64,000 nt of DNA from Verrucomicrobiota bacterium (GCA_025457615.1 JALOTZ010000003.1:145614-209613), one strand, 5' to 3'; positions 4,142 through 19,935 are shown, numbered from the stretch's first letter. The notes: generated by a model from the sequence alone, not told the origin. A program made the numbers and translations.

Positions 4142-4663
4142 CTACGCTGCCAGCGCCTTCCGCAGCTTGGCCAGCAAGCGTCCCTCTCCGCGTTCCGCAC
4201 TCCGCACTCCGTGTTTCGGGAGTTCATGTTCCCAGATGCGCAGCACGCGCCAGCCTTGCGCTCGCAGGGTTCGGTTCACCATCCGGTCCCGCGCTTTATT
4301 CGCCGCCAGTTTTTTCCGCCAGAACGCGGCGTTGTGGCGGGGCTTCGTGGCGTGCAGCGGGCAGGCGTGCCAGAAACAACCGTCCACGAACACCGCCAGC
4401 CGCAGCTTGGGGAAGACGAAGTCCGGCCGCACCCGTAGCCGCAGACGTGAGTCCGCGCCATCTCGCCATAGCGACGTCCGCTTTGAAGCTGGCGCCGACT
4501 GATCCCGGCGGCTACGCACGCTCAGTTGCTGGTGCCTCCGCCATCTGCTGATGCCATGCCGGCGAAACAGCGACGACAGCGCAAGCTCTGTGTCCTTGTT
4601 TCCGCGCGAGCGAATGCGGGACATGACCTGCGAGCGTTTCTCTTGTGTGAATACGTCAGCCAT
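4142..4663 (-). CDS. vsr: Very short patch repair endonuclease (Vsr)
   Basis: This 173-residue protein is the T:G mismatch nuclease that repairs deamination of 5-methylcytosine at sites methylated by a partner C5 methyltransferase. It starts with TQEKRSQVMSRIRSRGNKDT. The core RPDFVFPKLRLAVFVDGCFW (catalytic Asp at about residue 81, FWH at about 98-100) and FWRKKLAANKARD...WRVLRIWEHEL are intact. I start it at the ATG at 4663; an in-frame ATG at 4699 would overlap the upstream gene. Residues of about 49-77 (SVRSRRDQSAPAS...DSRLR) interrupt the usual short link between WRRHQ and the PDFVF motif and coincide with an inverted-repeat insertion at 4434-4516. It is the last gene of the cluster headed by the methyltransferase at 8075-9811. 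Confidence 0.9.
   Translation of the reverse strand: MADVFTQEKRSQVMSRIRSRGNKDTELALSSLFRRHGISRWRRHQQLSVRSRRDQSAPASKRTSLWRDGADSRLRLRVRPDFVFPKLRLAVFVDGCFWHACPLHATKPRHNAAFWRKKLAANKARDRMVNRTLRAQGWRVLRIWEHELPKHGVRSAERGEGRLLAKLRKALAA
4434..4516. repeat. Palindromic element inserted in frame within vsr
   Basis: The 83-base segment has matching ends: CGTAGCCGC at 4434 and its complement GCGGCTACG ending at 4516. Partial pairing continues inward (GTGAGTCCGCGCCA against TGGCGCCGACTGAT). It encodes the extra residues of about 49-77 of Vsr without a stop codon. Its GTAGC...GACGTGAG end resembles the element inside the dcm-like gene (9102-9195), so the two probably belong to one family. Confidence 0.65.
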
Positions 4664-4670
4664 CGCGGAT

Positions 4671-5396
4671 TCATGCAACCTGCGTGCGGAAGCGATCAAA
4701 CTCCTTTGGCAGCAGTTGCAGCAACTCCGCCGCGCTCAGGCCGTAAAGATACCAAGTCAGGTCAAGTTGGTTTAGCAGCGTTGCCAACCGCCGAGCCGCG
4801 CCGCGAACGTCCGAGCCTGCCCCGCGCTTGAAGGAGTCCTTCGTAGGGTCGTAATACAACTCCGTGGCAGCCTCCGCCACGGCGCGGTTGGTTACCAGTT
4901 CCTTCCGAGAGGCAAGCTGCTCGGCGATTTCACCGGGTTTCCACAGTGGATTGCACAGCATGGCAATCGCCCGCTTTGGCAGGTCGCGGTGCGCCCGTAC
5001 AATCAGGAAAGGACCGACAAGCAGATGCCGGTAGAACCGCTGGTGGTTGTCGAGAATTGGAAGCAGCCGCGCTTCGTCTTTCGGGTCCCGCCGGCCATTT
5101 CCATCCGCTGGGCAGACTTGGTCGAAGTAGAACAGCGTGAGCCAAGCCCACAGACCTTGGTCGCGCTCGGGGAGGTTGATTGCCGCTCTATCAACTAAAT
5201 CGTTGAAGAACAAGCCGGCGTCCAGCCGGTTGGTGAATACTCGCGGCAGTACCTCAACCTCCCCTGGCAGCTCCTCTGTCAACGCCGGGTCTTCGAGCAA
5301 TTCAACCGGTGGTGGAAGCGCAGGCTCCAAAGCCAACCGCCCTCGGTAGTTCGCGAACGCAGTCACTCCATCGGCGTTGAAACGACGTAGTCTCAT
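4671..5396 (-). CDS. Uncharacterised protein of the methyltransferase-GHKL-Vsr cluster (DUF6339-like)
   Basis: The 241-residue soluble protein begins MRLRRFNADGVTAFANYRG and contains NRLDAGLFFNDLVDRAAINL, WLTLFYFDQVCP, NHQRFYRHLLVGPFLIVRAH and a C-terminal RLATLLNQLDLTWYLYGLSA. The pattern looks like the DUF6339 family as I remember it, which has no known activity; I cannot confirm this. There is no signal peptide, membrane segment or recognised catalytic motif. It sits 14 bases after the 250-residue gene and directly before vsr, in an uninterrupted five-gene minus-strand run. A structural or regulatory part in a restriction-like system is inferred from context only. Confidence 0.75.
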   Translation of the reverse strand: MRLRRFNADGVTAFANYRGRLALEPALPPPVELLEDPALTEELPGEVEVLPRVFTNRLDAGLFFNDLVDRAAINLPERDQGLWAWLTLFYFDQVCPADGNGRRDPKDEARLLPILDNHQRFYRHLLVGPFLIVRAHRDLPKRAIAMLCNPLWKPGEIAEQLASRKELVTNRAVAEAATELYYDPTKDSFKRGAGSDVRGAARRLATLLNQLDLTWYLYGLSAAELLQLLPKEFDRFRTQVA

Positions 5397-5410
5397 GCGC
5401 GTGTCTCCTC

Positions 5411-6163
5411 CTAAAAAACCAGATCCAATTTGGCGCGCAACTCGTGCCGATGCGCGAATGTGGCCACCGCCTCATCAGTCCACGCTTCGCGATCCTGCTT
5501 CTGGTCTGGGTTTGGTAGCGGGGTGGAAACACCGAGATTTCGCGCAAACCGCACCCAGTCCGCTTGCCATCCCGGTTCCTCGTCGTCCTCAACCCACGCA
5601 TCTTCGATGAGGATGTGGGCCAAGATTCTCCGCAGGACTTCGGGATATACCAGCGACAGAAAGTGCTGCGAGCGAGCGAGGTCTTTCCACGTCGGTTTGG
5701 CATCTTTGTTCACCAGCAGACGCGGTGGATCGCTCTCCATATCGAGTTTCCAAAGCAGTTGGTCCAGCGCTTCCGGCACGGGCTCAAGCAACGGGCGGCG
5801 CTTGTCAGTAGCCTCACCTGCTTTCACAAACTGGATGCCATCTGCCTCGCCGAGCAGTTTGTGGTGTTCGTTGCCGGGCGGTTGCACAACGCGCACCCTA
5901 AACAGGATGCCATCCGGCACATCAAACTCGGTCAACCGCCTGTTGCTTGGGGGGCGCATGGCCGAAATGGTTCCCCATGCGAACTGCATCCAGAGGTTCT
6001 GCCGATGAGCCTCCAGCCAGACTTCGGCATTGCGAGGAAAGCGATAATCCGCCAACCGCAAGTCGGCATCGAAAACCCAAGTTCCCTGGTCCTCGCGGAG
6101 CGTGATGGATACGTCGCGCCGTTCAATCTTGCGACGCCCAGTGTAGTTAAACGTTCTCTTCAT
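5411..6163 (-). CDS. Uncharacterised 250-residue protein of the GHKL/methyltransferase cluster
   Basis: I do not recognise this protein. It is soluble and charged, starts MKRTFNYTGRRKIERRDVSI, and has an N-terminal half rich in beta-type segments (TWVFDADLRLADYRFP, VWLEAHRQNLWMQFAWG) and a helical C-terminal half ending AHRHELRAKLDLVF. The centre (LLVNKDAKPTWKDLARSQHF, then YPEVLRRILAHILIEDAW) reads like a helical scaffold. No nuclease motif is convincing. It starts inside the last codons of the GHKL ATPase gene (17-base overlap), so the two are translationally coupled. A dedicated partner of that ATPase is the simplest inference. Confidence 0.75.
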   Translation of the reverse strand: MKRTFNYTGRRKIERRDVSITLREDQGTWVFDADLRLADYRFPRNAEVWLEAHRQNLWMQFAWGTISAMRPPSNRRLTEFDVPDGILFRVRVVQPPGNEHHKLLGEADGIQFVKAGEATDKRRPLLEPVPEALDQLLWKLDMESDPPRLLVNKDAKPTWKDLARSQHFLSLVYPEVLRRILAHILIEDAWVEDDEEPGWQADWVRFARNLGVSTPLPNPDQKQDREAWTDEAVATFAHRHELRAKLDLVF

Positions 6164-8063
6164 CGGCTCCTTTCAACTCAATTGCGCGGACGACCAAGTC
6201 ACGCTTCTTGTCGAAACCACAAATGCCGAACTGGAAGTCCGGCTTTCGTAGTTCCAACTCGATGTAGTTTCCGTCTTCACGACTGACAATTACACCGTTG
6301 GCTTTCGGTTCTTGTCTGAGCGGCTGGCGTGTGAACACGAAATCGTCAGTCGCCCAGCGTTTGATCGCATTTCCACGGCGGACGGCATATGCAGCCTCAA
6401 TCCGGACCCGCACAGGAAACGACTCCGGCGGTGCGTCACCGGGTTTGAGAACGAAGCCGCCCTCCACTTGTCGGAGGTCAAATCGTCTCGGCTTTGGAGG
6501 CACGCCGCCAGGAGGCTCGCTCTGCTTGCCATCGTCACCGGGTTTCGACTTTTTTGCAGGCTCAGTTGGTCCTTCATCGGTTGGCAGGAAGAAAAGATCG
6601 AGCAGAAGCGTGGGATCGCCTTTCGTGTCGCGGGCATGGAGCGCCTGCATGATCTCAAACACGCTCCGCGTCACAAACTTGATGGCGTCCGGCCCGTAGA
6701 AATAGCGGTTGTGGAACTTCGGAGAGTCCTTCTGCCATTGCGTGTGATTGACGCCTTCCGCGTCACCTAGCAACCCGGCTAGCGGAGGATCTTCCACTTC
6801 AACCAAGGAGCGGCATCCCTGCAACTGCGGAGCACGCACATCTTTGATGAGAATGCCGTCACGCAGGAAAAGAGGGCGATAACCCGCATCACGGCAAGGC
6901 TCGATGTAAACGGTGAAGAAGGACATGGTTTCGGCTCTTCCATCCTTGGGCCGGACCCGGAGCGGAACCCGGACTCCAACACGCTGATTGGTTTCCATGC
7001 GAGTGCGAATTTGTGCCAGCGTGGCTTCCGGCAAGATCAATTCCCCGATCTTTCGCCAGTCTGGCGGTCTGGTTGGTTCTTCCGGCAGACTTACGATCTC
7101 TGCCGGTTTCGCGTATGCCGCCCATGCCGCGAACTGAACCACGGCTGCTTCCGAGGCGGGCAGCAGCGCTCTGTGAGCGGCGATGGACTCCGCGTCGATG
7201 CGGTGGTTGACGCTGGGGGCTTCAAGCTCGACCACCAACTCGCCGAGCAGGATTGGCCAGAAGAAATTCTGGACTACCCCGCGCCGCAGATCGTCCAAGC
7301 TCACGCGATCATCAACGCACGGCACCACCACCGAGAGGCCAGGTTTGTCCCGTCGCTTCAGCCCGAGGGTTTGCTCGAATCGGGCAATGAAATCAGAGTC
7401 AACCACGGGCAGCACCTGCTCTCCACCGCCGCTACGGCAACCGAACCAAGCATCGGGTTGGTAGTCCTTGCCCTGGATTGAGTGGCTGCGGACGACCGCC
7501 GAACCCATGAGCACTTTGGCTGGCGTATCGCTGCGGACACTCAAGCCAAACATCGAATGGAGTTTGCTGGCGGTGGGAAAGACCTGCTTGCCGATTCCCC
7601 AGCGTCCAAGGTTCTCGCCGGTCTTTGCCGAACGGCCGTCCGCCCTAAAGAAGCTGAAAAAGGCGTTGAACTCTGAATGCTCCAACCGCCATTCCGAAAC
7701 ATCCCCATTCAACCCTCTGGTTCCGAAGTCTTCGAAGGCGAGAAAACCAGTCTCGCCATTGAACAGTTCGGTGAAGCTGCCATTCCCCAACCCTTTCTCG
7801 AAGTGGACACGGGCCGGCTGGAATAAGTCCAATAGGGCGGTGCGAGCCTGCGCACTCGCCCCCGGCACCAATGCGATTCTCACAGTGACCTGCCGTTCGT
7901 TGGCGTCTCCGCGCATTGCTGCGTCGAGCGAGTTCTGAATTCCTTCGCGGACGAGAGCCTCGCTCAGGTTCTCCAAGCTCTCTGCCGTGAAGAAGGCGTC
8001 GTTCGCGGAGTCCCGCATTCGGTCGCAGGCTCGCCTTTCGTTGAAATGCCACTGTGGATTCAT
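6147..8063 (-). CDS. GHKL (MutL/Hsp90-type) ATPase of a methyltransferase-linked defence cluster
   Basis: This is a 638-residue protein. I chose the ATG at 8063 (MNPQWHFNERRACD) because it lies 11 bases after the methyltransferase stop; frame upstream of it would run into that gene. The N-terminal third carries all three GHKL boxes: the N-box ALVREGIQNSLDA (about residues 37-48), the G1 box FEDFGTRGL (about 110-118), and a GRWGIGK lid motif further on. Later parts include FFTVYIEPC and RNGDxx-type beta segments but no known domain. A proline- and lysine-rich linker precedes the last 120 residues. MORC/MutL-like GHKL ATPases linked to restriction-modification genes are known from comparative genomics. 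The expected role is an ATP-driven clamp that couples DNA recognition to the nuclease. Confidence 0.82.
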   Translation of the reverse strand: MNPQWHFNERRACDRMRDSANDAFFTAESLENLSEALVREGIQNSLDAAMRGDANERQVTVRIALVPGASAQARTALLDLFQPARVHFEKGLGNGSFTELFNGETGFLAFEDFGTRGLNGDVSEWRLEHSEFNAFFSFFRADGRSAKTGENLGRWGIGKQVFPTASKLHSMFGLSVRSDTPAKVLMGSAVVRSHSIQGKDYQPDAWFGCRSGGGEQVLPVVDSDFIARFEQTLGLKRRDKPGLSVVVPCVDDRVSLDDLRRGVVQNFFWPILLGELVVELEAPSVNHRIDAESIAAHRALLPASEAAVVQFAAWAAYAKPAEIVSLPEEPTRPPDWRKIGELILPEATLAQIRTRMETNQRVGVRVPLRVRPKDGRAETMSFFTVYIEPCRDAGYRPLFLRDGILIKDVRAPQLQGCRSLVEVEDPPLAGLLGDAEGVNHTQWQKDSPKFHNRYFYGPDAIKFVTRSVFEIMQALHARDTKGDPTLLLDLFFLPTDEGPTEPAKKSKPGDDGKQSEPPGGVPPKPRRFDLRQVEGGFVLKPGDAPPESFPVRVRIEAAYAVRRGNAIKRWATDDFVFTRQPLRQEPKANGVIVSREDGNYIELELRKPDFQFGICGFDKKRDLVVRAIELKGADEENV

Positions 8064-8074
8064 CGTTCTTGTTC

Positions 8075-9811
8075 CTATGCCGTTCTGAAGTCTACCCGCG
8101 CAATCTTCACTTCCTCGGCAAGCTGCGGGTTGCGATAGCACATGCCCGCCATCTGGGCTTCCGAGCAATAGAAGTCGTCATCGGCGAGTTCCTTGTTACG
8201 AAATCGTCTCCATGCTTCCCGGGCGATGGGCGCAAGCACCACCGGCCAGCCGCTGCGCTCGTAGTAAGGCGCGGTCAGCCTTGGCTCTAGTCTGGCCACT
8301 GGCGTGTATTCGTTCTCGTTCTTTCGGCAGATGGTTTCGCCGTGATCGAGTGCGCTGTCGGGATGCAGCCCGGCGTAGAGAAAGGCGATGGCAATCCACG
8401 CGCGTTTGAAAACGTCAGTTTCGACACGCCGTAGCGCCTGTGGTGGCAAATCAAGCAGCGGACGGACCCAGGCGACTGCCTGATCTTCCGTCACGGGCAG
8501 AGGCGCAGCGTCGAACGGGATGGCTTGATGCACAGGCTGGGCGGCAGTCAGGAAGTCGCGCACTTCTTCCGCGACCGCTTCGGCCACTATGGGCGGCACG
8601 GCGTTGCCGATGAGGCGGAACTGATGGGTGCGAGCCACGGGGAACCAGAACCAGTCAGGGAACGTCTGGATTCGCGCCGCCTCGCGCGGTGTGAGCGAAC
8701 GGTTCTGGTTCGGATGAATGAACATCAACCCGTCCTTGCTCAGATGGGCCACGATGGTGGAGCAAAGCTCGTCCCGGTGCTGGCGCTTGTAGCGGTCACT
8801 GAAGCAGGATCGGCTGTAGGTGAACTCCAGAGATTCCCCCCGCGCCTCCGCTTCACCGCTGTGCTCGCCTTGGCGCAGGCGGGCGAAGTCACGCAGATCA
8901 CGCTCGCTGTGCGGCCGGGCGCGGTGTGCGGTGAGATGCGACGCGCGCTCAATTTCCAAGATGGATTGCAGGTAGTGGCGCGCCGCCGCTCCACGCTCCG
9001 CCAGAAAGTCATTGCGCCGTTTCAAGTCGTAGTCGCATTCCTCGACGCCTCCGCCTGCCGGCACTTCAGGCAGATCGCCGATGGCATCCCAAAGCTTCGG
9101 TGTAGCAGCCGACGTGAGGAGGCTCTGATCAGATTCGGAGCGTGGGCAAGTTTCAGCACCATTCCTAAATGGAGCCTCGTGACCTCGGCTGCTACTTGAG
9201 AAGGCTCGCGCCGCGGGGCTCAACTCTCCCGCGAAGTATCCCGGAATGTCGTCACGCACGCCGATGACGAGTTGACGCCGACGCTTCTGCGGCACGCCGA
9301 GTTTCCAGGCTTCTTCAACCTGAGCTTGGACGCGGTAGCCCAGCTTGCGCGCCTCCGCCTGAACCATCGTGAAGAACTTGCCTTTCGCGGCGCTTTGGAG
9401 GCCGAGGACGTTTTCCATGACGAACACGCGCGGACGAAACGCGGCCACGTAGTCGAGGAAGTAACGGAAGAGGTAGCGGCGTTTGTCCCGGCGCACGCGC
9501 GAGCCGTGGTTGGCAGCATCCACCTGCCGCACGGTGCTGAAGCCCTGACACGGCGGCCCGCCAACGATGACATCCACACTGTTGACACCAATCCTGGCCG
9601 CCAATTCGTGAGGGGTGAAGCGCGAGAGGTCCTTGCAGAGGGCGAGCGTTTCCTTGCCGAAGTTCGCCTTGAAGGTGGCAATCGCCTGTTCGTTGAAGTC
9701 AACGGCGGCAAGGCACCGGAAACCGGCTCGCTCCATGCCAAGCGTGAAGCCGCCGCAACCGCAGAAGAGGTCGAGACAAGTCAGGGACTGAGTTGTTGTG
9801 TCCGTGGACAT
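8075..9811 (-). CDS. DNA (cytosine-5) methyltransferase with C-terminal extension
   Basis: The 578-residue protein carries the C5-methyltransferase motifs in order: I (LDLFCGCGGFTLGM, about 13-26), IV (GGPPCQGFS, catalytic Cys at about 88), VI (MENV, about 132), VIII (QKRRR, about 175), and X (LIGNAVPP, about 400-407). About 150 residues follow motif X (for example WVRPLLDLPPQALRRVETDV and RSGWPVVLAPIAREAWRRF), unlike plain Dcm enzymes; their role is unknown. Residues of about 204-238 come from a palindromic insertion (9102-9195) between motif VIII and the target recognition region. It heads the cluster methyltransferase, GHKL ATPase, two unknowns, Vsr. The start at 9811 follows a 240-nt structured leader. 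Vsr pairing suggests the target contains 5-methylcytosine prone to deamination. Confidence 0.92.
   Translation of the reverse strand: MSTDTTTQSLTCLDLFCGCGGFTLGMERAGFRCLAAVDFNEQAIATFKANFGKETLALCKDLSRFTPHELAARIGVNSVDVIVGGPPCQGFSTVRQVDAANHGSRVRRDKRRYLFRYFLDYVAAFRPRVFVMENVLGLQSAAKGKFFTMVQAEARKLGYRVQAQVEEAWKLGVPQKRRRQLVIGVRDDIPGYFAGELSPAARAFSSSSRGHEAPFRNGAETCPRSESDQSLLTSAATPKLWDAIGDLPEVPAGGGVEECDYDLKRRNDFLAERGAAARHYLQSILEIERASHLTAHRARPHSERDLRDFARLRQGEHSGEAEARGESLEFTYSRSCFSDRYKRQHRDELCSTIVAHLSKDGLMFIHPNQNRSLTPREAARIQTFPDWFWFPVARTHQFRLIGNAVPPIVAEAVAEEVRDFLTAAQPVHQAIPFDAAPLPVTEDQAVAWVRPLLDLPPQALRRVETDVFKRAWIAIAFLYAGLHPDSALDHGETICRKNENEYTPVARLEPRLTAPYYERSGWPVVLAPIAREAWRRFRNKELADDDFYCSEAQMAGMCYRNPQLAEEVKIARVDFRTA
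9102..9195. repeat. Palindromic element inserted in frame within the C5 methyltransferase gene
   Basis: A 24-base left arm beginning GTAGCAGCCGACGTGAGG at 9102 pairs with the right arm ending ACCTCGGCTGCTAC at 9195; 21 of 24 positions are complementary. The element adds residues of about 204-238 to the enzyme with no stop. Its ends resemble those of the element in vsr. Confidence 0.75.
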
Positions 9812-10175: not shown

Positions 10176-10580
10176 TCAAACCAGCCAGTTGATCTTGATC
10201 TCCTTCTCCACCGCTTTGAACTCCGGGTCGCCGGTGACGAGTTCGGCCTTGTGCTTCCGGGCCAGCGCGGCGGCGAAGGCGTCGGCCAGGCTGAGGCTTA
10301 AGCGCGATTTGAAGTCCGCCGCCACGTCGGCCAGTTCGCGGTCCGCCGGATGGAATTCAACAGGCAATGTGGGCAAATCACGGGCCACGTCCGCCCAGCG
10401 CGCGGCGCCGTCCTTGCGGAGGACCATGTATTTGACCTCGGCGTAGTTCACCTCGGTCATGTGCAGCGGCACGTCGCGCTGGCCGGCCCTTTCCAGCAGC
10501 GCGGCAACCTTGTCGTCGCCGGCTTCGCCCCGGAGAAACGCGAGCAGCGCAAAGCTATCGAGCACCGGTGCTGCGGGCAT
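10176..10580 (-). CDS. vapC: PIN-domain toxin, VapC type
   Basis: The 134-residue protein has the PIN ribonuclease layout: N-terminal LDSFALLAFLRGE with the first acidic residue, a mid acidic residue in HMTEVNYAEVKYMV, and LSLADAFAAALARKHKAELVTGDPEF with the later acidic cluster. I use the ATG at 10580, which gives MPAAPVLDSF and a normal VapC length. This start lies inside the end of the antitoxin gene (26-base overlap), the usual coupled arrangement. Such toxins cleave tRNA or rRNA when the antitoxin is lost. The catalytic residues look intact. The pair lies inside the defence island, between the two restriction-modification modules. Confidence 0.88.
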   Translation of the reverse strand: MPAAPVLDSFALLAFLRGEAGDDKVAALLERAGQRDVPLHMTEVNYAEVKYMVLRKDGAARWADVARDLPTLPVEFHPADRELADVAADFKSRLSLSLADAFAAALARKHKAELVTGDPEFKAVEKEIKINWLV

Positions 10581-10854
10581 GTTTGGCCTCCTCGATTTCC
10601 TTTTCCCGGCGTTTGTGCTCCGCCCACTCCTCCCCGAGCGGCTTGTCGCCGGGTTTGCGCTTGAGGATGCCACGCAGGCGGTTGATGGCGTGCCGGGTCA
10701 CCGGCTTCAGCAGGATGCCCTCGTCGGTGGCGGTGACGATGGCGCGGGTGCCGTCCTCAATGTGGTAGAGCTTGCGGAGCCGCAGCGGGATCACCACCTG
10801 GCCTTTGGTGGTGAACCAGACGGTGTCGGCTGGCGATGTCGTATTCACGAACAT
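10555..10854 (-). CDS. AbrB/SpoVT-type antitoxin of the PIN toxin
   Basis: This 99-residue protein has an N-terminal swapped-hairpin AbrB DNA-binding domain (VWFTTKGQVVIPLRLRKLYH, then GTRAIVTATDEGILLKPV). A basic helical tail (GILKRKPGDKPLGEEWAEHK, then RREKEIEEAKHA) should wrap around the toxin. It is translated just before the PIN toxin. Directly upstream lies a perfect palindrome overlapping a plausible promoter (10861-10900), which fits the autorepression known for this class. It has the size expected of an AbrB-type VapB antitoxin. Confidence 0.87.
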   Translation of the reverse strand: MFVNTTSPADTVWFTTKGQVVIPLRLRKLYHIEDGTRAIVTATDEGILLKPVTRHAINRLRGILKRKPGDKPLGEEWAEHKRREKEIEEAKHARSTGAR

Positions 10855-12655: not shown

Positions 12656-12925
12656 TCAATAGACCTCGTCATGGGTGCCGATGTCGGTGAACACCACCCG
12701 ATTCTTGGTGGCGAATAGAAAAAGGACCCGAACATTGTATTCAACGGAGAAACTCCAAAACTCCGCCAGATCGCCTGAGAGTTTGTGCGTTCGCAGGCGC
12801 GCGTCAAACGGGTCCTCCTGAAAGATCTCCACTCGCTTCCAGAAACTCTCCTCCAATCGTTTACGGCCTTCGATGCGCTTCTTGAAGGCCCGCTTGAAGG
12901 ACGAACTGAAGGCGATCCGCGTCAT
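12656..12925 (-). CDS. RelE/YafQ-type mRNA interferase toxin
   Basis: The 89-residue basic protein (MTRIAFSSSFKRAFKKRIEG, LRTHKLSGDLAEFWSFSV, NVRVLFLFATKNRVVFTDIG, THDEVY) has the compact RelE-superfamily arrangement, including the conserved KL.G....W.F....N.R region and a C-terminal IGTHDEVY typical of the YafQ/RelE-StbE group. Such toxins cut mRNA in the ribosome. It overlaps the upstream antitoxin gene by four bases (ATGA). It lies at the boundary between the ROK kinase and the second structured leader. Confidence 0.87.
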   Translation of the reverse strand: MTRIAFSSSFKRAFKKRIEGRKRLEESFWKRVEIFQEDPFDARLRTHKLSGDLAEFWSFSVEYNVRVLFLFATKNRVVFTDIGTHDEVY

Positions 12926-13520: not shown

Positions 13521-16500
13521 ATGCCCGAGAGCAATGCATTGCAGCGGTTGCAGGCGCTTCTGCGCGACCTGTTCCAATACGACTACGCCGACCTGGACTT
13601 CGGCATCTACCGGCTGCTGCGGTTGAAACGCGGCGAGGTCGAGGCGTTCCTGACCGAGCAACTGCCGCGACGGGTGGACGAGGTGTTCAAGGGGGCGGTC
13701 GGTGATGTTCATGCGCAACTGGAGCGCGAGCTTGCCGGTTTGGCTGAACGGGTGAGGCAGGAGATCGACGCCGAGGCGCTCGCGCCGACCGGGGAGATCA
13801 AGGAGGATCACCGGCACCAGAAGGCGAAGGCGGCGCGGGAGTTGATTGCGGCTTACGAGGCCAAGCGTCAGCAGGTTCAGGAGATTCAGGTCAGCGAGGA
13901 GCAGAAGGCGGAGGTGTTCAATCATCTCTGGGCGTTCTTCTCGCGCTACTACGAGGCGGGCGATTTCATCCCGAAGCGACGCTACGGGGCGCGGGAAACC
14001 TACGCCGTACCCTACAATGGCGAGGAAGTCTTCTTCCACTGGGCCAACCGCGACCAGCACTACGTGAAGACCGCCGAGAGCCTGCGCGATTACGCCTTCA
14101 CCGTGGGCATGCTCGGCCAACCGTGCCGGGTGCGGTTCACGCTCACCGAAGCGAGCCTGCCACCCGGCAACACCAAGGGCGACACGCGCTACTTCTTTCC
14201 GCTGCCGAAGGAAGCGGCGTGGGACAAGGCCACGCGCATGTTCACGCTGCCGTTCCACTACCGGCTGCCCACCGAAACGGAGATCGAGAAACACGGCAAG
14301 AACAGCCGGCTGCAGGAATCCGTCCTGCAAGCGGCGCTGCCGAAGATCATTGAGGCCGTGCCCGAGGCCGGCTTGAAGGCGCGGCTCGCCGAAATCGTGG
14401 AGCCGAAGCAAAACGAGGAAACGAGCCTGCTTCTGAAGCGGCTGCGCCACTTCTGCCGCAAGAACAGCAGCGACTATTTCATCCACAAGAACCTCGACGG
14501 TTTCCTGCGGCGCGAGTTGGAGTTTTACCTCAAAGACCAAGTGCTGCATCTGGCCGATCTCGACGGCGACCTGCCGGGCAAGCAGCGCACGCTGCGGGTG
14601 ATCCGGAAACTGGCCGAGGAAGTAATCCAGTTCCTCGCGCAGATCGAGAACGTCCAAAAACGGCTGTTCGAGAAGCGCAAATTCGTCCTGAAAACCGACT
14701 ACCTCGTGCCCATCCAGAACGTCCCGCGCGAATTGTGGAAGGAAGTTGCCGGCAACGCCGGTCAGTTGGCCGCGTGGAAAGAGTTATTCGCCATCGACCC
14801 GCCTGCCGATCAGCGGGCAGGGTCGAAGAAGGTGAACGAGAAGTTCCTGGCGGAGCATCCGACGCTGGTGGTGAACACCGCGCATTTCAATGCGCCTTTC
14901 AAGGAGCGGCTGCTGACCGCATTCGATGATGTGGACGAAGCAACCGACGGGCTGCTGATTTGCTCAGAGAATTACCAAGCCCTGCGTTTTCTCCTGCGCA
15001 AATGCGCCGCCGGAGTTGATTGCATTTACATTGATCCGCCATACAACACCGGCGATTCCCAGATCCCTTACAAGAACGGCTATCTCTTCTCCTCGTGGGT
15101 TGCGTTGATGGAGGGCCGGCTTACGGAAGCAATGAAGCTCGTGACGAAAGACGCGATCCTGTTCATCGCCATAGATGATTTTGAGATGGCCGATCTCTGC
15201 CAGGTTATGGACCGAGAGTTTCCATACCTGCGCAGGGAGATGATTGTCGTCAACCATCACCCACAGGGAGGCAAAGCCAAGACCTTCGCGACAACGCACG
15301 AATACATGCTTGTGTGTGTGCGAAGGGACTGCGCAAGGGCACTCGCCGGCAGGGAAGACTCTGAGACTACCGAGCGGCGTCCGTTCAAGCGCAGTGGCAC
15401 GGCGGAGAGCAATTTCAGGAAAGGCAGACCCAATAGTTTCTACGCGGTATTGGCAGACCCCGAGACAAAGAAGGTTGTTGGTCTCGAACCGCGGCCGGAT
15501 GGCGACTATCCAACAGGTCCAACCGAAGACGGTCGCATCCGCATATACCCGGTAGGAGAGCAAGAAGAGGAGCGTGTGTGGCGCCGCTCCTACGAATCGG
15601 CTCTCGGCCTCCTCCGCGAGGGCAAGTTGGTGTGCAGTGACGCGATGACGGTTTACCAATTGATTGAGGCTGGGGATAGAACGCCTGCCCTCTTTAGCAA
15701 CTGGGTTGATCGCCGTTACAACGCTGGAACGTATGGCGCAAACCTCCTTGCTGACATCATCGGAAAACACAACCCGTTTGCTTATCCCAAGTCCATACAC
15801 ACGGTCGGCGATGCGCTCTTTGCCGGCAGGCTTGAGGATGACAATGTGTGCTTGGACTTCTTCGGCGGGTCAGGCACGACCGGCCATGCGGTCATCAATT
15901 TGAACAGAGAGGATGGCGAGCAGCGCAAGTTCATCATAGTCGAGATGGGTGAGCACTTCGATACCGTGCTCGTGCCTCGTATCCAGAAAGTGATGTTCAC
16001 TCCCGAATGGAAAAGCGGCAAGCCGGTGCGGATGGCGACGAAGGAGGAAGCCGAGCGGACGCCGCGTTTGGTGAAAGTGCTGCGGTTGGAGGGCTACGAG
16101 GACGCCCTGCACAACTTGGTCTCGGATGAGACGCTCGAACGCGAAGCGCCGCGCGCAAAGGCGATCAAGGGCAAGGTTGGCGACGACGCTTACCGGCTGA
16201 CCTACATGGCGCGGCTGCCGGTGGAGGCGAGCGCGAGCATGTTGAATCTGGCGAAGCTGGAACATCCGTTTGCCTACACCATCGAGGTGCTCGGCGAGGA
16301 CGGGCCGCGCACGGAGACGGTGGATTTGGTGGAGACGTTCAACTTCCTCTACGGCCTGCACGTCCAGCGTATCGAGAGGTGGCGCGACGAGGCCGCCAAG
16401 CGGGACTACCGCGCGGTCAAGGCGAAGAAGGCCGACGGGCGGCGCGTGTTGGTGCTGTGGCGCGACATGGACAAGCTTGATCCCGCCGTCGAGCGGAAGT

Positions 16501-16628
16501 TTCTGGAGGCGCGGCTGAAGCAGGACGGGCCGTTCGACGAGGCGTGGATCAACGGCGACTGCGCCGTGCCGGGTGTGCGGTCGTTGGACGGGCTGTTTAA
16601 GCGGTTGCTGGAGGAGGAAGAACGGTGA
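13521..16628 (+). CDS. Type III-like adenine-specific DNA methyltransferase (Mod)
   Basis: This is a 1035-residue beta-class amino-methyltransferase. Catalytic motif IV, DPPYNTG, is at about residue 505 and precedes the S-adenosylmethionine motif FGGSGTTGHA at about 781, the order seen in type III Mod proteins. The first 470 residues (coiled segments such as KAARELIAAYEAKRQQVQEI, then FFHWANRDQHYVKTAESLRD and YFFPLPKEAAWDKATRMFTL) and the last 200 are not part of the fold. They should include target recognition and Res contacts. Mod is larger than classic EcoP enzymes (about 650) but normal for the Mod-helicase pairs of many environmental bacteria. It starts immediately after the structured leader and is followed, 232 bases later, by the helicase-nuclease. 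It probably methylates adenine on one strand of an asymmetric site. Confidence 0.92.
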   Translation: MPESNALQRLQALLRDLFQYDYADLDFGIYRLLRLKRGEVEAFLTEQLPRRVDEVFKGAVGDVHAQLERELAGLAERVRQEIDAEALAPTGEIKEDHRHQKAKAARELIAAYEAKRQQVQEIQVSEEQKAEVFNHLWAFFSRYYEAGDFIPKRRYGARETYAVPYNGEEVFFHWANRDQHYVKTAESLRDYAFTVGMLGQPCRVRFTLTEASLPPGNTKGDTRYFFPLPKEAAWDKATRMFTLPFHYRLPTETEIEKHGKNSRLQESVLQAALPKIIEAVPEAGLKARLAEIVEPKQNEETSLLLKRLRHFCRKNSSDYFIHKNLDGFLRRELEFYLKDQVLHLADLDGDLPGKQRTLRVIRKLAEEVIQFLAQIENVQKRLFEKRKFVLKTDYLVPIQNVPRELWKEVAGNAGQLAAWKELFAIDPPADQRAGSKKVNEKFLAEHPTLVVNTAHFNAPFKERLLTAFDDVDEATDGLLICSENYQALRFLLRKCAAGVDCIYIDPPYNTGDSQIPYKNGYLFSSWVALMEGRLTEAMKLVTKDAILFIAIDDFEMADLCQVMDREFPYLRREMIVVNHHPQGGKAKTFATTHEYMLVCVRRDCARALAGREDSETTERRPFKRSGTAESNFRKGRPNSFYAVLADPETKKVVGLEPRPDGDYPTGPTEDGRIRIYPVGEQEEERVWRRSYESALGLLREGKLVCSDAMTVYQLIEAGDRTPALFSNWVDRRYNAGTYGANLLADIIGKHNPFAYPKSIHTVGDALFAGRLEDDNVCLDFFGGSGTTGHAVINLNREDGEQRKFIIVEMGEHFDTVLVPRIQKVMFTPEWKSGKPVRMATKEEAERTPRLVKVLRLEGYEDALHNLVSDETLEREAPRAKAIKGKVGDDAYRLTYMARLPVEASASMLNLAKLEHPFAYTIEVLGEDGPRTETVDLVETFNFLYGLHVQRIERWRDEAAKRDYRAVKAKKADGRRVLVLWRDMDKLDPAVERKFLEARLKQDGPFDEAWINGDCAVPGVRSLDGLFKRLLEEEER

Positions 16629-16697
16629 GACCAAAGCGGGACGGTTGTTGCGTGATTGGATGCGTTGCACTGAATTGGCCTTGCCACTGGCCGTCGG

Positions 16698-16797
16698 AAA
16701 AGCGGCGGAGGGCCGCCGCACTCCAAAACCTGGCGGACACGGGCGGGCGACTGGAGCTCGCGAAGCGTCTTGGAGTGCGGCAGTCCTCTGCCGCTTT
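16698..16797. repeat. Palindromic repeat between mod and res
   Basis: The arms AAAGCGGCGGAGGGCCGCCG...CACTCCAA (from 16698) and TTGGAGTGCGGCAG...CTGCCGCTTT (to 16797) are inverted copies with a few mismatches, separated by about 45 bases. Mod and Res genes are normally adjacent or overlapping, so this 100-base element accounts for much of the 232-base gap. Confidence 0.75.
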
Positions 16798-16860
16798 CTT
16801 CCTGGCTGGCGCTCTCGGACGTCCTTGGCGCGGTCCAGTCCATGACACAGTGGAGGACGC

Positions 16861-19800
16861 ATGAGACTGGAACACGCGCTGGTTCTGAACCGGTATTTTC
16901 ACGCCCTGTTGGATGCGCGTGAGCTGACCGAGTTGAAGCAGCCGATGAACGTGCAGGAAGGCCGGGCGGCGGACGGGCAGAGCTACTTCTACGGGGCGCT
17001 GTTGGGGCGGGCGCAGGACGCGGCTTTGCGGGACAAGCTGGCGGAGTATGACGCGCGCGTGATGGGTTACGAGGCGCGGCTGGCGAAAGCGCGCGGCCAG
17101 TTTGCGTTCAAGTATTTCCAGTACCTCGGCCTGCTTTACACCGAAATCTGCCTCGACCGGCTGACGTCCGAGCCGGCGGCCTTCCTGGCTGACTTGAATG
17201 CGTTCCTCCAACGCCAGAAGCGCGCCGAACCAGCGCTGCACGAGTTTACGGCGTTCGAGCCGGATGATCTGCGGCGGCTGGCATTCTTCATGGCGACCGG
17301 CAGCGGCAAGACCTTGCTGCTTCATGTAAACCTGTGGCAGATGCTCCATTACCTGCGGCATGGCCGGCATCCCGAAGCGCTGGTGAGGCGCGCGGACAAG
17401 CGGCGGGAGTTCGATTCCATCCTGCTCATCACGCCCAATGAGGGGCTCTCGGAACAGCACTTGAAGGAGTTCCACCTCAGCGGAGTGGACGCGGTGCTGC
17501 TCGTGGAAGACCGGTCGGGACAGCAGTCGTTCGAGCCCCGGGTGCGGATCATTGAGATCAGCAAGCTGGCCGAGGCCGCCAGCGGCGAGGGGGTGAGCGT
17601 GGCACTGGAGTCGCTGGGCAGCGCCAATCTGGTGTTCGTGGACGAGGGACACAAAGGCACCGGCAGCGAAGCGCGGACGTGGAAGAACCGGCAACAGGCA
17701 TTGGGCAAGGACGGATTCATTATGGAATACAGCGCGACGTTTGCGCAGGCCATTGGCGCGGCGGGACGGAAGGTGCAGGAGGAGTTGAGGGTCGAATACG
17801 GCAAATCCATCCTCATGGACTATTCCTACCGGCATTTCTATCACGATGGCTACGGGAAGGATTTCCGGGTGTTGAACCTGTCGCGGGCGCGGGAGACCCA
17901 GGCCCACGACTTGTTGGTTGGCGGCCTGCTGGCGTTCTACCAGCAATACCACCTGTTCCATAAGAACCAGGACACCTACCGGCCCTACAACCTGGAGAAG
18001 CCGCTCTGGGTGTTTCTCGGTTCCAGTGTCAAGGCCATCTACACGCGGGACGGTCGCAGCCGCAGCGACGTGGCGCAGGTGGTGGAGTTTCTTCGCAGGT
18101 TCCTGGAAGAGCCAGACTGGGCCACCCGCACCATGCGGTCATTCCTCAACGGGGAAAGTGGCTTTCAGGATGCCCAGACCCGGGGCGATTTGTTCAAACC
18201 GTTGATGGAGGAACTCGCCGGACGCGATGCCGTCCGGCTTTACGGGGAAATCTGCCAGCGGCTTTTCCACGGCGCGGGGGGGCTGGAGGTGTGGGAACTC
18301 AAGAACGCGGACGGCGAGCTGGCGCTGCGGGTTTCAACTTCATCCGGGAGGGAACGCCCCTACTTTGCCGTGATCAACATCGGCGACGTGAGCGCGTTCA
18401 AGAAGCACCTGGAGGAGAACCTGAAGCTGGACGTCCACGAGGACAAGTTCTGCGGCTCGCTGTTCGGCGAGATTGACCGGCCCGATTCAGCGGTCAACGT
18501 ACTGGTCGGCGCGAAGAAGTTCATCGAGGGCTGGTCGAGTTGGCGCGTGTCCGCGATGGGCTTGCTGAACATCGGGCGGGGCGAAGGTCCGCAGGTTATC
18601 CAGTTGTTCGGCCGCGGTGTCCGGTTGAAGGGCAGGCAATGGTCATTGAAGCGCAGCACGCCGCCACGTCCGGGGGGATTGGAGAATCTGGAGAAGCTGC
18701 TGATCTTCGGCTGGAACGCCGAATATCTCCAAGCGTTCCGCGACATGATCGCGGCCGAGGAAATTCAGGAGGAACTGGAGTTGTGGGTGCGGCTGGTGAA
18801 TCCGCAACCGCCTCTGCCCATTCCCGTGCCGCGGGCCGGCTATCGTGTGGAATCGGAGACGTGGCAACTGGAGGCAACGGCCCTGCAAGTCCTGGTGGAC
18901 CTTACTCCCACGGTGACAGCCATCGCGGGGAAGGAGATCGCCGCAGGACACTTGGGACGCGGCCGGGAGGTGGATCTTGGAGCGGAGGGCGAGGGCGGCG
19001 TGCTGGATTTCGACGCCCTGTATGCGGACCTCTTGGAATACAAGGCGCAGCGCGGTTACCAGAATCTGCTGGTGCGTCGGCAGGTGTTGCCGGATTTGCT
19101 GTCCAGGAACCACTTGCGCCTGGTGGAAACGGATGCCTGCGACCCGCAACGTCTGCAGGAAGGAGCAAGCCGGCTGCTGCGAGCTTGTCTGGATCGGTTC
19201 TACAGCCAGAAGGCCAGGCAGGCCGAAGCCGCTCAACTCGAACCTCAACCCCTGGTCTTGCGGGAACGCGCCACGACCGTTTACCGGGTGCGAGCGCCGG
19301 TGGACATCCTGGCCGAGATCAAGAATCTGGTGAAGCGGCGGAAGTTCGACAGCGAGGGCGAAAAGCCAATCCCCCGATTGCACATCGACCAGAGCCTGTT
19401 CAACCCGCTGCTCCTCAACCCCGCCGACTTCAAGCTGGAGGACGTTTCGGTCAGTCCTCCGGGTCTGGGCAAGAACGAGCGCAACTTCGTGAGCGACCTG
19501 CGGTCGTTCTGGGCCGCACATCGGGCCGAAGAACCCTATCGACACTACGAGATCCACCTGCTGCGCAACATGCCCAAGGTGGGCGTCGGATTCTTCATCC
19601 ACAGCGGGTTTTACCCGGACTTCATTCTGTGGGCTCGGGACCGACGGGACAGGACCACCTACGTCCGCTTCCTGGATCCGCACGGGATGCACCATGGCGG
19701 TCTGATGGGCAACGAGAATCGTTTTGCGGCATTCCGGCAATTGCAGGTGGTAAGCCGGCAGCCCGAGTTCCAGCGGCGCAAGATCAGGCTGGATGGTTTC

Positions 19801-19935
19801 CTCCTTGTGGCTACGCCTTTGGAGCAGATTGTGGATAGGAATGGCAGGGACTGGCGGGACTTGGAGCGGGACTTTCCCCTGATCAGGCAGGACGGGGATT
19901 ACCACCGGAAAGTGCTGAGCTTTCCCGGCCCTTGA
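16861..19935 (+). CDS. Type III-like restriction subunit (Res): SF2 helicase with C-terminal nuclease-like domain
   Basis: In this 1024-residue protein, Walker A (MATGSGKT) is at about residues 144-151. The DEAD-like motif II reads DEGHKG at about 261, and motif VI-like IQLFGRGVRLKG is present. The C-terminal part has GFFIHSGFYPDFILWARD and YVRFLDPHGMHHG at about 910-945, the place where related Res proteins carry a PD...(D/E)xK endonuclease. Here the lysine position reads histidine (DPH), so nuclease activity is uncertain. The enzyme should translocate along DNA and cleave when unmodified sites meet, working with Mod. The ATG at 16861 follows a GGAGG site. Both Mod and Res are full length. 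Confidence 0.9.
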   Translation: MRLEHALVLNRYFHALLDARELTELKQPMNVQEGRAADGQSYFYGALLGRAQDAALRDKLAEYDARVMGYEARLAKARGQFAFKYFQYLGLLYTEICLDRLTSEPAAFLADLNAFLQRQKRAEPALHEFTAFEPDDLRRLAFFMATGSGKTLLLHVNLWQMLHYLRHGRHPEALVRRADKRREFDSILLITPNEGLSEQHLKEFHLSGVDAVLLVEDRSGQQSFEPRVRIIEISKLAEAASGEGVSVALESLGSANLVFVDEGHKGTGSEARTWKNRQQALGKDGFIMEYSATFAQAIGAAGRKVQEELRVEYGKSILMDYSYRHFYHDGYGKDFRVLNLSRARETQAHDLLVGGLLAFYQQYHLFHKNQDTYRPYNLEKPLWVFLGSSVKAIYTRDGRSRSDVAQVVEFLRRFLEEPDWATRTMRSFLNGESGFQDAQTRGDLFKPLMEELAGRDAVRLYGEICQRLFHGAGGLEVWELKNADGELALRVSTSSGRERPYFAVINIGDVSAFKKHLEENLKLDVHEDKFCGSLFGEIDRPDSAVNVLVGAKKFIEGWSSWRVSAMGLLNIGRGEGPQVIQLFGRGVRLKGRQWSLKRSTPPRPGGLENLEKLLIFGWNAEYLQAFRDMIAAEEIQEELELWVRLVNPQPPLPIPVPRAGYRVESETWQLEATALQVLVDLTPTVTAIAGKEIAAGHLGRGREVDLGAEGEGGVLDFDALYADLLEYKAQRGYQNLLVRRQVLPDLLSRNHLRLVETDACDPQRLQEGASRLLRACLDRFYSQKARQAEAAQLEPQPLVLRERATTVYRVRAPVDILAEIKNLVKRRKFDSEGEKPIPRLHIDQSLFNPLLLNPADFKLEDVSVSPPGLGKNERNFVSDLRSFWAAHRAEEPYRHYEIHLLRNMPKVGVGFFIHSGFYPDFILWARDRRDRTTYVRFLDPHGMHHGGLMGNENRFAAFRQLQVVSRQPEFQRRKIRLDGFLLVATPLEQIVDRNGRDWRDLERDFPLIRQDGDYHRKVLSFPGP

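Follow-up and report, generated by a model that had tools for sequence, protein, structure and literature searches.

Iyer et al. 2008 (PMC2292703) reported operons in which a paraMORC GHKL ATPase is encoded beside DCM and Vsr, and PADLOC holds a candidate system, PDC-M33, made up of a GHKL protein (component A), a protein B and a protein C of the DUF6339 family (PF19866). A literature search found no paper naming PDC-M33 or DUF6339. In the HEF_HK/Response_reg_2 system (PMC8011034), a GHKL protein and a partner occur with a C5 methylase and a downstream Vsr in many genera, whereas in the GHKL-Shedu protein VcSduA (PMC12137116), shown to be anti-phage, the GHKL ATPase is proposed to control an effector. 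Here, we analysed a 64,000-nucleotide stretch from a Verrucomicrobiota bacterium (GCA_025457615.1, JALOTZ010000003.1:145614-209613; the window), in which an earlier reading of the sequence (the original prediction) had proposed an incompletely described anti-phage system at positions 4142-9811, formed by genes for a C5 methyltransferase, a GHKL ATPase, two uncharacterised proteins and Vsr. Sequence comparison indicates that the GHKL gene and the two genes after it, here called the A-B-C trio, belong as a divergent branch to PDC-M33 and to the restriction-modification accessories of the paraMORC type.

The five open reading frames were all located on the minus strand, separated by 11, −17, 14 and 7 bases, as originally described. 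From the methylase onwards, they encode a C5 cytosine DNA methyltransferase (P0005, 578 residues, 8075-9811), the paraMORC-like GHKL ATPase (A; P0004, 638 residues, 6147-8063), B (P0003, 250 residues, 5411-6163), C (P0002, 241 residues, 4671-5396) and the Vsr mismatch endonuclease (P0001, 173 residues, 4142-4663). The three identities assigned beforehand proved correct. The methylase matched Pfam PF00145 at 5.2e-62 and is intact, with its catalytic motifs in place (DLFCGCGG, GGPPCQGFS, MENV, QKRRR and RLIGNAVPP); it was conserved in the homologous loci L006, L008 and L010. P0004 carries all four GHKL ATP-binding motifs (REGIQNSLDA at 39, EDFGT at 111, GRWGIGK at 153 and GLSVVVP at 242), which were conserved across the family alignment. 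P0001, the only Vsr in its genome, matched Pfam PF03852 at 3e-16 and NCBIfam TIGR00632 at 3e-30, the latter above the cut-off, and aligned with the solved Vsr structures 1odg, 1vsr and 1cw0 at about 1e-12. Neither Pfam nor NCBIfam assigned A, B or C to a family at E≤0.1, B and C matched no PADLOC model at 0.1, and the GHKL, B and C families gave no matches in PDB sequence searches. Set against a type II restriction-modification system, the cluster has the C5 methyltransferase, but Pfam and PADLOC recognised no linked restriction endonuclease, only Vsr, as the original prediction had also noted.

Across 97 relatives, 388 genomes of the phylum, the GTDB contig collection and plasmids, the trio was found in the same order at 13 loci (the window, L006, L007, L008, L009, L010/L012, L011, L019, L020, L021, L022, L023 and L027). 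Loci L010 and L012, probably split, were counted as one, and genome G668, which shares its contig with L011, added no further locus. A C5 methylase was linked at 12 loci, placed before or after the trio, on the opposite strand (L019) or about 2.6 kb away (L027, where the trio sits on a Rhizobium plasmid that also encodes a 389-residue protein), whereas Vsr was linked at only 8. The co-occurrence of all five genes, originally proposed as a check, held for the trio and largely for the methylase, but less so for Vsr. The distribution was rare and patchy: the GHKL query matched in 4 of the 97 relatives and the B family in 6 of the 388 phylum genomes, and no GHKL cluster was seen at G419/L085. Codon comparison with the closest relative gave dN/dS values of 0.05 for GHKL, 0.06 for C, 0.08 for both B and the methylase, and 0.28 for Vsr. 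From these values and from the recurrence of the trio at 13 loci, accompanied by a C5 methylase wherever the contig reaches far enough, the five open reading frames are real genes and form a conserved bacterial gene cluster.

Profile comparison linked the trio to PDC-M33 to different degrees. PADLOC PDC-M33A matched P0004 at 1.1e-13, over residues 1-287 (the N-terminal half) only; the GHKL and M33A families aligned at 1.5e-39 in hhalign, and in a FastTree phylogeny the window-type GHKL proteins formed a single clade (support 1.000) inside M33A diversity. No curated model of Pfam or PADLOC matched P0002, and its genome (G000) had no PF19866 match, but the C family aligned with the DUF6339 family over the full length at E 1.9e-6 (probability 89.5%) with enlarged alignments, after an E of 0.0078 in a first attempt with smaller ones. 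B aligned with M33B at a borderline E of 0.0045 (probability 7.7%), ahead of all other off-diagonal pairs still to be considered; unrelated control pairings gave E≥0.013.

Gene order pointed the same way. A distant relative, L025, encodes a GHKL protein, a 316-residue protein, a DUF6339 (PF19866) protein that PADLOC names PDC-M33C, a C5 methylase and Vsr. Bacillota, Actinomycetota, Deinococcota and further verrucomicrobial genomes with DUF6339 had the same cassette, as GHKL-B-DUF6339 by a C5 methylase, often with Vsr and with AlwI, MutH/Sau3AI, Shedu or type II enzymes; DUF6339 relatives also occur on plasmids next to restriction enzymes. Additionally, a small conserved gene of about 77 codons precedes the GHKL gene both in the present branch (L020:11347-11640 and L022:1775-2014) and in the DUF6339 branch (L035-L038, L040, L080 and L084); no counterpart was seen in the window cluster. 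Since the GHKL protein matches M33A, C remotely matches DUF6339, and layouts and the small gene are common to both, the trio is a divergent branch of this group, so that the cluster is partly catalogued already, through A and, remotely, C. It shares with PDC-M33 the order and sizes of A, B and C, the C5 methylase and, often, Vsr alongside. It differs in that no PADLOC or Pfam model picks up B or C, the GHKL proteins group in a clade of their own, the window cluster has no linked restriction enzyme, the methylase carries a fused C-terminal domain, and VapBC genes lie 5' of the cluster at most verrucomicrobial loci.

The paraMORC operons resemble the window in having a GHKL ATPase beside DCM and Vsr in a restriction-modification-like operon, which agrees with the original statement that GHKL genes next to such systems are known. 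In the accessible text of PMC2292703, however, an SFII helicase is usual, although not universal, and the window cluster has none; the C-terminal part of its GHKL protein gave no RE-nuclease, TIR or other Pfam match, and proteins like B and C are not recognisable in that text. Unlike the HEF_HK/Response_reg_2 system, the window cluster encodes two partners, one predicted all-helical and one beta-sandwich/helical, and PF19191 (HEF_HK) and PF19192 (Response_reg_2) had no match in P0001-P0005 at E≤0.1; with no Pfam match, neither B nor C was taken for a Response_reg_2 protein. A genome search with PF19192 matched nowhere, not even in the controls, and so carries no weight. VcSduA has a DUF4263 nuclease fused to its GHKL domain, whereas here no nuclease domain was found, and the DUF4263 PD-(D/E)xK domain had no Pfam match in P0004. 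The anti-phage activity of VcSduA depends on its ATPase as well as on its nuclease (PMC12137116), which supports effector control by GHKL proteins in general.

AlphaFold2 models of B and C were built on 11-12 sequences, with the L027 rows left out. B was predicted as a beta-sandwich (residues about 11-155) followed by C-terminal helices (pLDDT 82.9, pTM 0.52); it had a fold-level likeness to C2/fn3 beta-sandwiches, with no known structure at E≤0.001. C was predicted as all-helical (pLDDT 90.5), and no fold match was found among PDB or viral structures. Identities within the C family ranged from 85% down to 22%, and the polar residues W83, H124, R164, N170, Y181, D183 and Q210 were kept in 11-12 of 12 distant members. 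A tblastn search of C in phages and a scan of viral contigs gave no match, and in hhalign neither B nor C gave a signal with any other family of the cluster. Judging from the models, neither protein resembles a nuclease, which speaks against the suggestion that one of them is a new nuclease; the profile searches and structure prediction proposed for them yielded instead the remote homology of C to DUF6339. At L023 (2500-3720), the C homologue continues at its C-terminus into a fused extension some 175 residues long, and the adjoining B homologue has an in-frame stop. An SRA-like reader was considered for this extension but gave no Pfam match and remained an unconfirmed candidate.

The nuclease linked to the trio differed by locus: Vsr alone, Mrr (L022), McrBC-like pairs (L020 and L081), GmrSD/NERD/NgoFVII (L080) and, at plasmid loci, AlwI, MutH/Sau3AI, Shedu or other type II enzymes. 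Nuclease partners are thus swapped within and between branches. Two genomes keep the trio and methylase with no Vsr anywhere, namely G668 (locus L011; 96% complete), which also has no linked nuclease, and G336 (88% complete), which has Mrr; therefore, Vsr is not an obligatory part. The Vsr family comprises repair enzymes. Vsr also adjoins C5 methylases having their own restriction enzyme, and repair beside the C5 methylase is the economical reading of its presence; the restriction step of the cluster is probably not carried out by Vsr.

Three features went beyond the original prediction and are new here: the fused methylase domain, which is free-standing elsewhere, palindromic GTAG-REP inserts in frame in the methylase and vsr genes, and VapBC genes 5' of the cluster at most verrucomicrobial loci. 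The methylase domain (residues about 440-578, LHPD..SGWP..EAWRR; 8078-8494, minus strand) was delimited by alignment and found by hmmsearch at 4e-51 and 5.5e-51, with a profile that included the matched sequences themselves. It forms a separate gene of about 117 codons at three loci: in L025 and L034 this gene stands between those for the methylase and Vsr, in L012 between those for C and Vsr. One GTAG-REP pair lies in the methylase gene at 9102-9195 (inverted repeat 9102-9125/9172-9195) and is absent from L006. Another lies in vsr at 4434-4516 (inverted repeat 4434-4463/4487-4516), just before RPDFVF; it is absent from L006 and L009, and other inserts occupy the same site in L008 and L012, so that three of five aligned Vsr proteins carry differing inserts immediately before the conserved PDF motif. 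The genome holds 29 copies of the GTAG-REP core and none of the reversed control. Intragenic GTAG-REPs were already known and are frequent in Opitutus terrae (PMC3733652).

Directly upstream of the cluster, on the minus strand, the window encodes a VapC-type PIN toxin (10176-10580; Pfam PIN 2.6e-18) and a VapB antitoxin of the AbrB/MazE type (10555-10854; Pfam MazE_antitoxin 4.6e-4, below the cut-off). Homologues of this pair precede the cluster in the same orientation at 12 loci, drawn from both branches (the window, L006, L009-L011, L019-L021, L023, L025, L034 and L082), at distances of 8 to 889 bases; a 13th pair, itself cut by a contig end, precedes L032. If the GHKL frame of L019 is read at its longest, vapC overlaps it. 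Nine genomes selected because they hold the cluster (about 46 Mb) contained 14 VapC of this type, 10 of them at the ten clusters, and chance placement within 1 kb was estimated to give well under 0.01. The type is carried by 31 of the 97 relatives, and four more copies lie near C5 methylases or Vsr (L098, L108, L111 and L113), where the trio was not seen in the short flanks. VapBC may be a guard or abortive layer of the cluster or a passenger of C5 restriction-modification loci. Further upstream, a YafQ-type toxin gene (12656-12925) and, on the other strand, a type III-like restriction-modification pair (13521-19935; an N6_N4 methylase and a ResIII helicase, the latter at 16861-19935) were seen. 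In L008, a short open reading frame at about 7760-8010, just 5' of the methylase, reads by eye as an XRE-type helix-turn-helix protein resembling the controller proteins of restriction-modification systems.

We consider it fairly probable that the methylase marks self, that GHKL-B-C acts on unmarked DNA via a replaceable effector or directly, and that Vsr repairs. By this mechanism, the C5 methylase would mark host DNA, as expected from its family, and the GHKL protein would form an ATP-dependent dimer that clamps DNA, its putative partner complex being made up of B, a beta-sandwich adaptor, and C, helical with conserved basic residues. The complex would act on DNA lacking the methylase mark; a replaceable linked nuclease would bring about the end effect where one is present, and elsewhere the clamp itself might block the DNA. 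Vsr would most likely repair T:G mismatches arising from deaminated 5-methylcytosine rather than cut phage DNA, and the upstream VapBC may add a suicide or addiction layer. This reading draws directly on gene order, conservation, the remote homology of C, the dispensability of Vsr, nuclease swapping and VapBC recurrence, together with models of B and C that show no nuclease-like fold. Several points weigh against it. The role in phage defence is read from neighbouring genes, and the link of B to M33B is borderline; the B and C models were built on 11-12 sequences, the B model has a pTM of 0.52, and C may conceivably be a new all-helical class of nuclease. G668 could be served by an unlinked or unrecognised nuclease, and VapBC could be a passenger, because the same type is also found away from such clusters. 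On balance, the anti-phage candidacy originally put forward stands as probable for a recurrent, methylase-linked GHKL cluster, although one already partly catalogued as PDC-M33A, DUF6339 and paraMORC.

A rather unlikely variant, drawn by analogy with eukaryotic MORC proteins, is restriction without cutting, in which the methylase would mark self and GHKL-B-C would clamp or compact unmarked incoming DNA. No nuclease would be needed, nucleases and VapBC would be optional add-ons, and a minimal locus would be predicted, such as L011/G668, where VapBC, trio and methylase stand without a linked nuclease in a genome devoid of Vsr. The same genome bears on the proposal, unlikely in our view, that Vsr is the restriction nuclease, with GHKL-B-C sensing unmethylated sites and activating Vsr as a nickase, as MutL stimulates MutH and Vsr. 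Vsr is indeed the sole nuclease of the window cluster and the only Vsr of its genome, it is linked at 8 of the 13 trio loci, and the coupling of MutL to Vsr, which is well established, is invoked as a precedent for these operons in PMC2292703. But G668 and the less complete G336 retain trio and methylase with no Vsr, and a restriction step necessarily made up of Vsr and the ATPase is not supported; in addition, vsr shows the fastest evolution of the five genes (dN/dS 0.28 versus 0.05-0.08 for the rest), its in-frame insert adjoins the conserved core, and Vsr accompanies C5 methylases already paired with a restriction enzyme of their own.

That C (P0002/DUF6339) or B is an effector nuclease of unrecognised fold seems improbable: C, although confidently modelled, matches nothing in the PDB and keeps its seven polar residues in nearly all distant members, but it is predicted to be all-helical and lacks an acidic metal-site signature of the PD-(D/E)XK kind, B is predicted to be a beta-sandwich, and the cassette usually accompanies other nucleases, as an accessory would. 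It is very doubtful that the cluster serves to regulate or maintain the methylome, with a housekeeping methylase, a repair enzyme and a chromosome-organising MORC-like ATPase, rather than defence. The lack of a linked restriction enzyme in the window cluster and the repair function of the Vsr family would suit such a role, but the patchy distribution among relatives and across the phylum, the plasmid-borne DUF6339 relatives by restriction enzymes and the type III pair nearby do not.

MORC-like GHKL ATPases beside methylases have been on record since 2008. The branch described here offers a compact core for working out their mechanism, consisting of an ATPase, a predicted beta-sandwich/helical protein and a predicted helical protein without a PDB match. 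Because a minimal natural locus exists without Vsr or a linked nuclease, whether the ATPase complex itself restricts DNA is directly testable.

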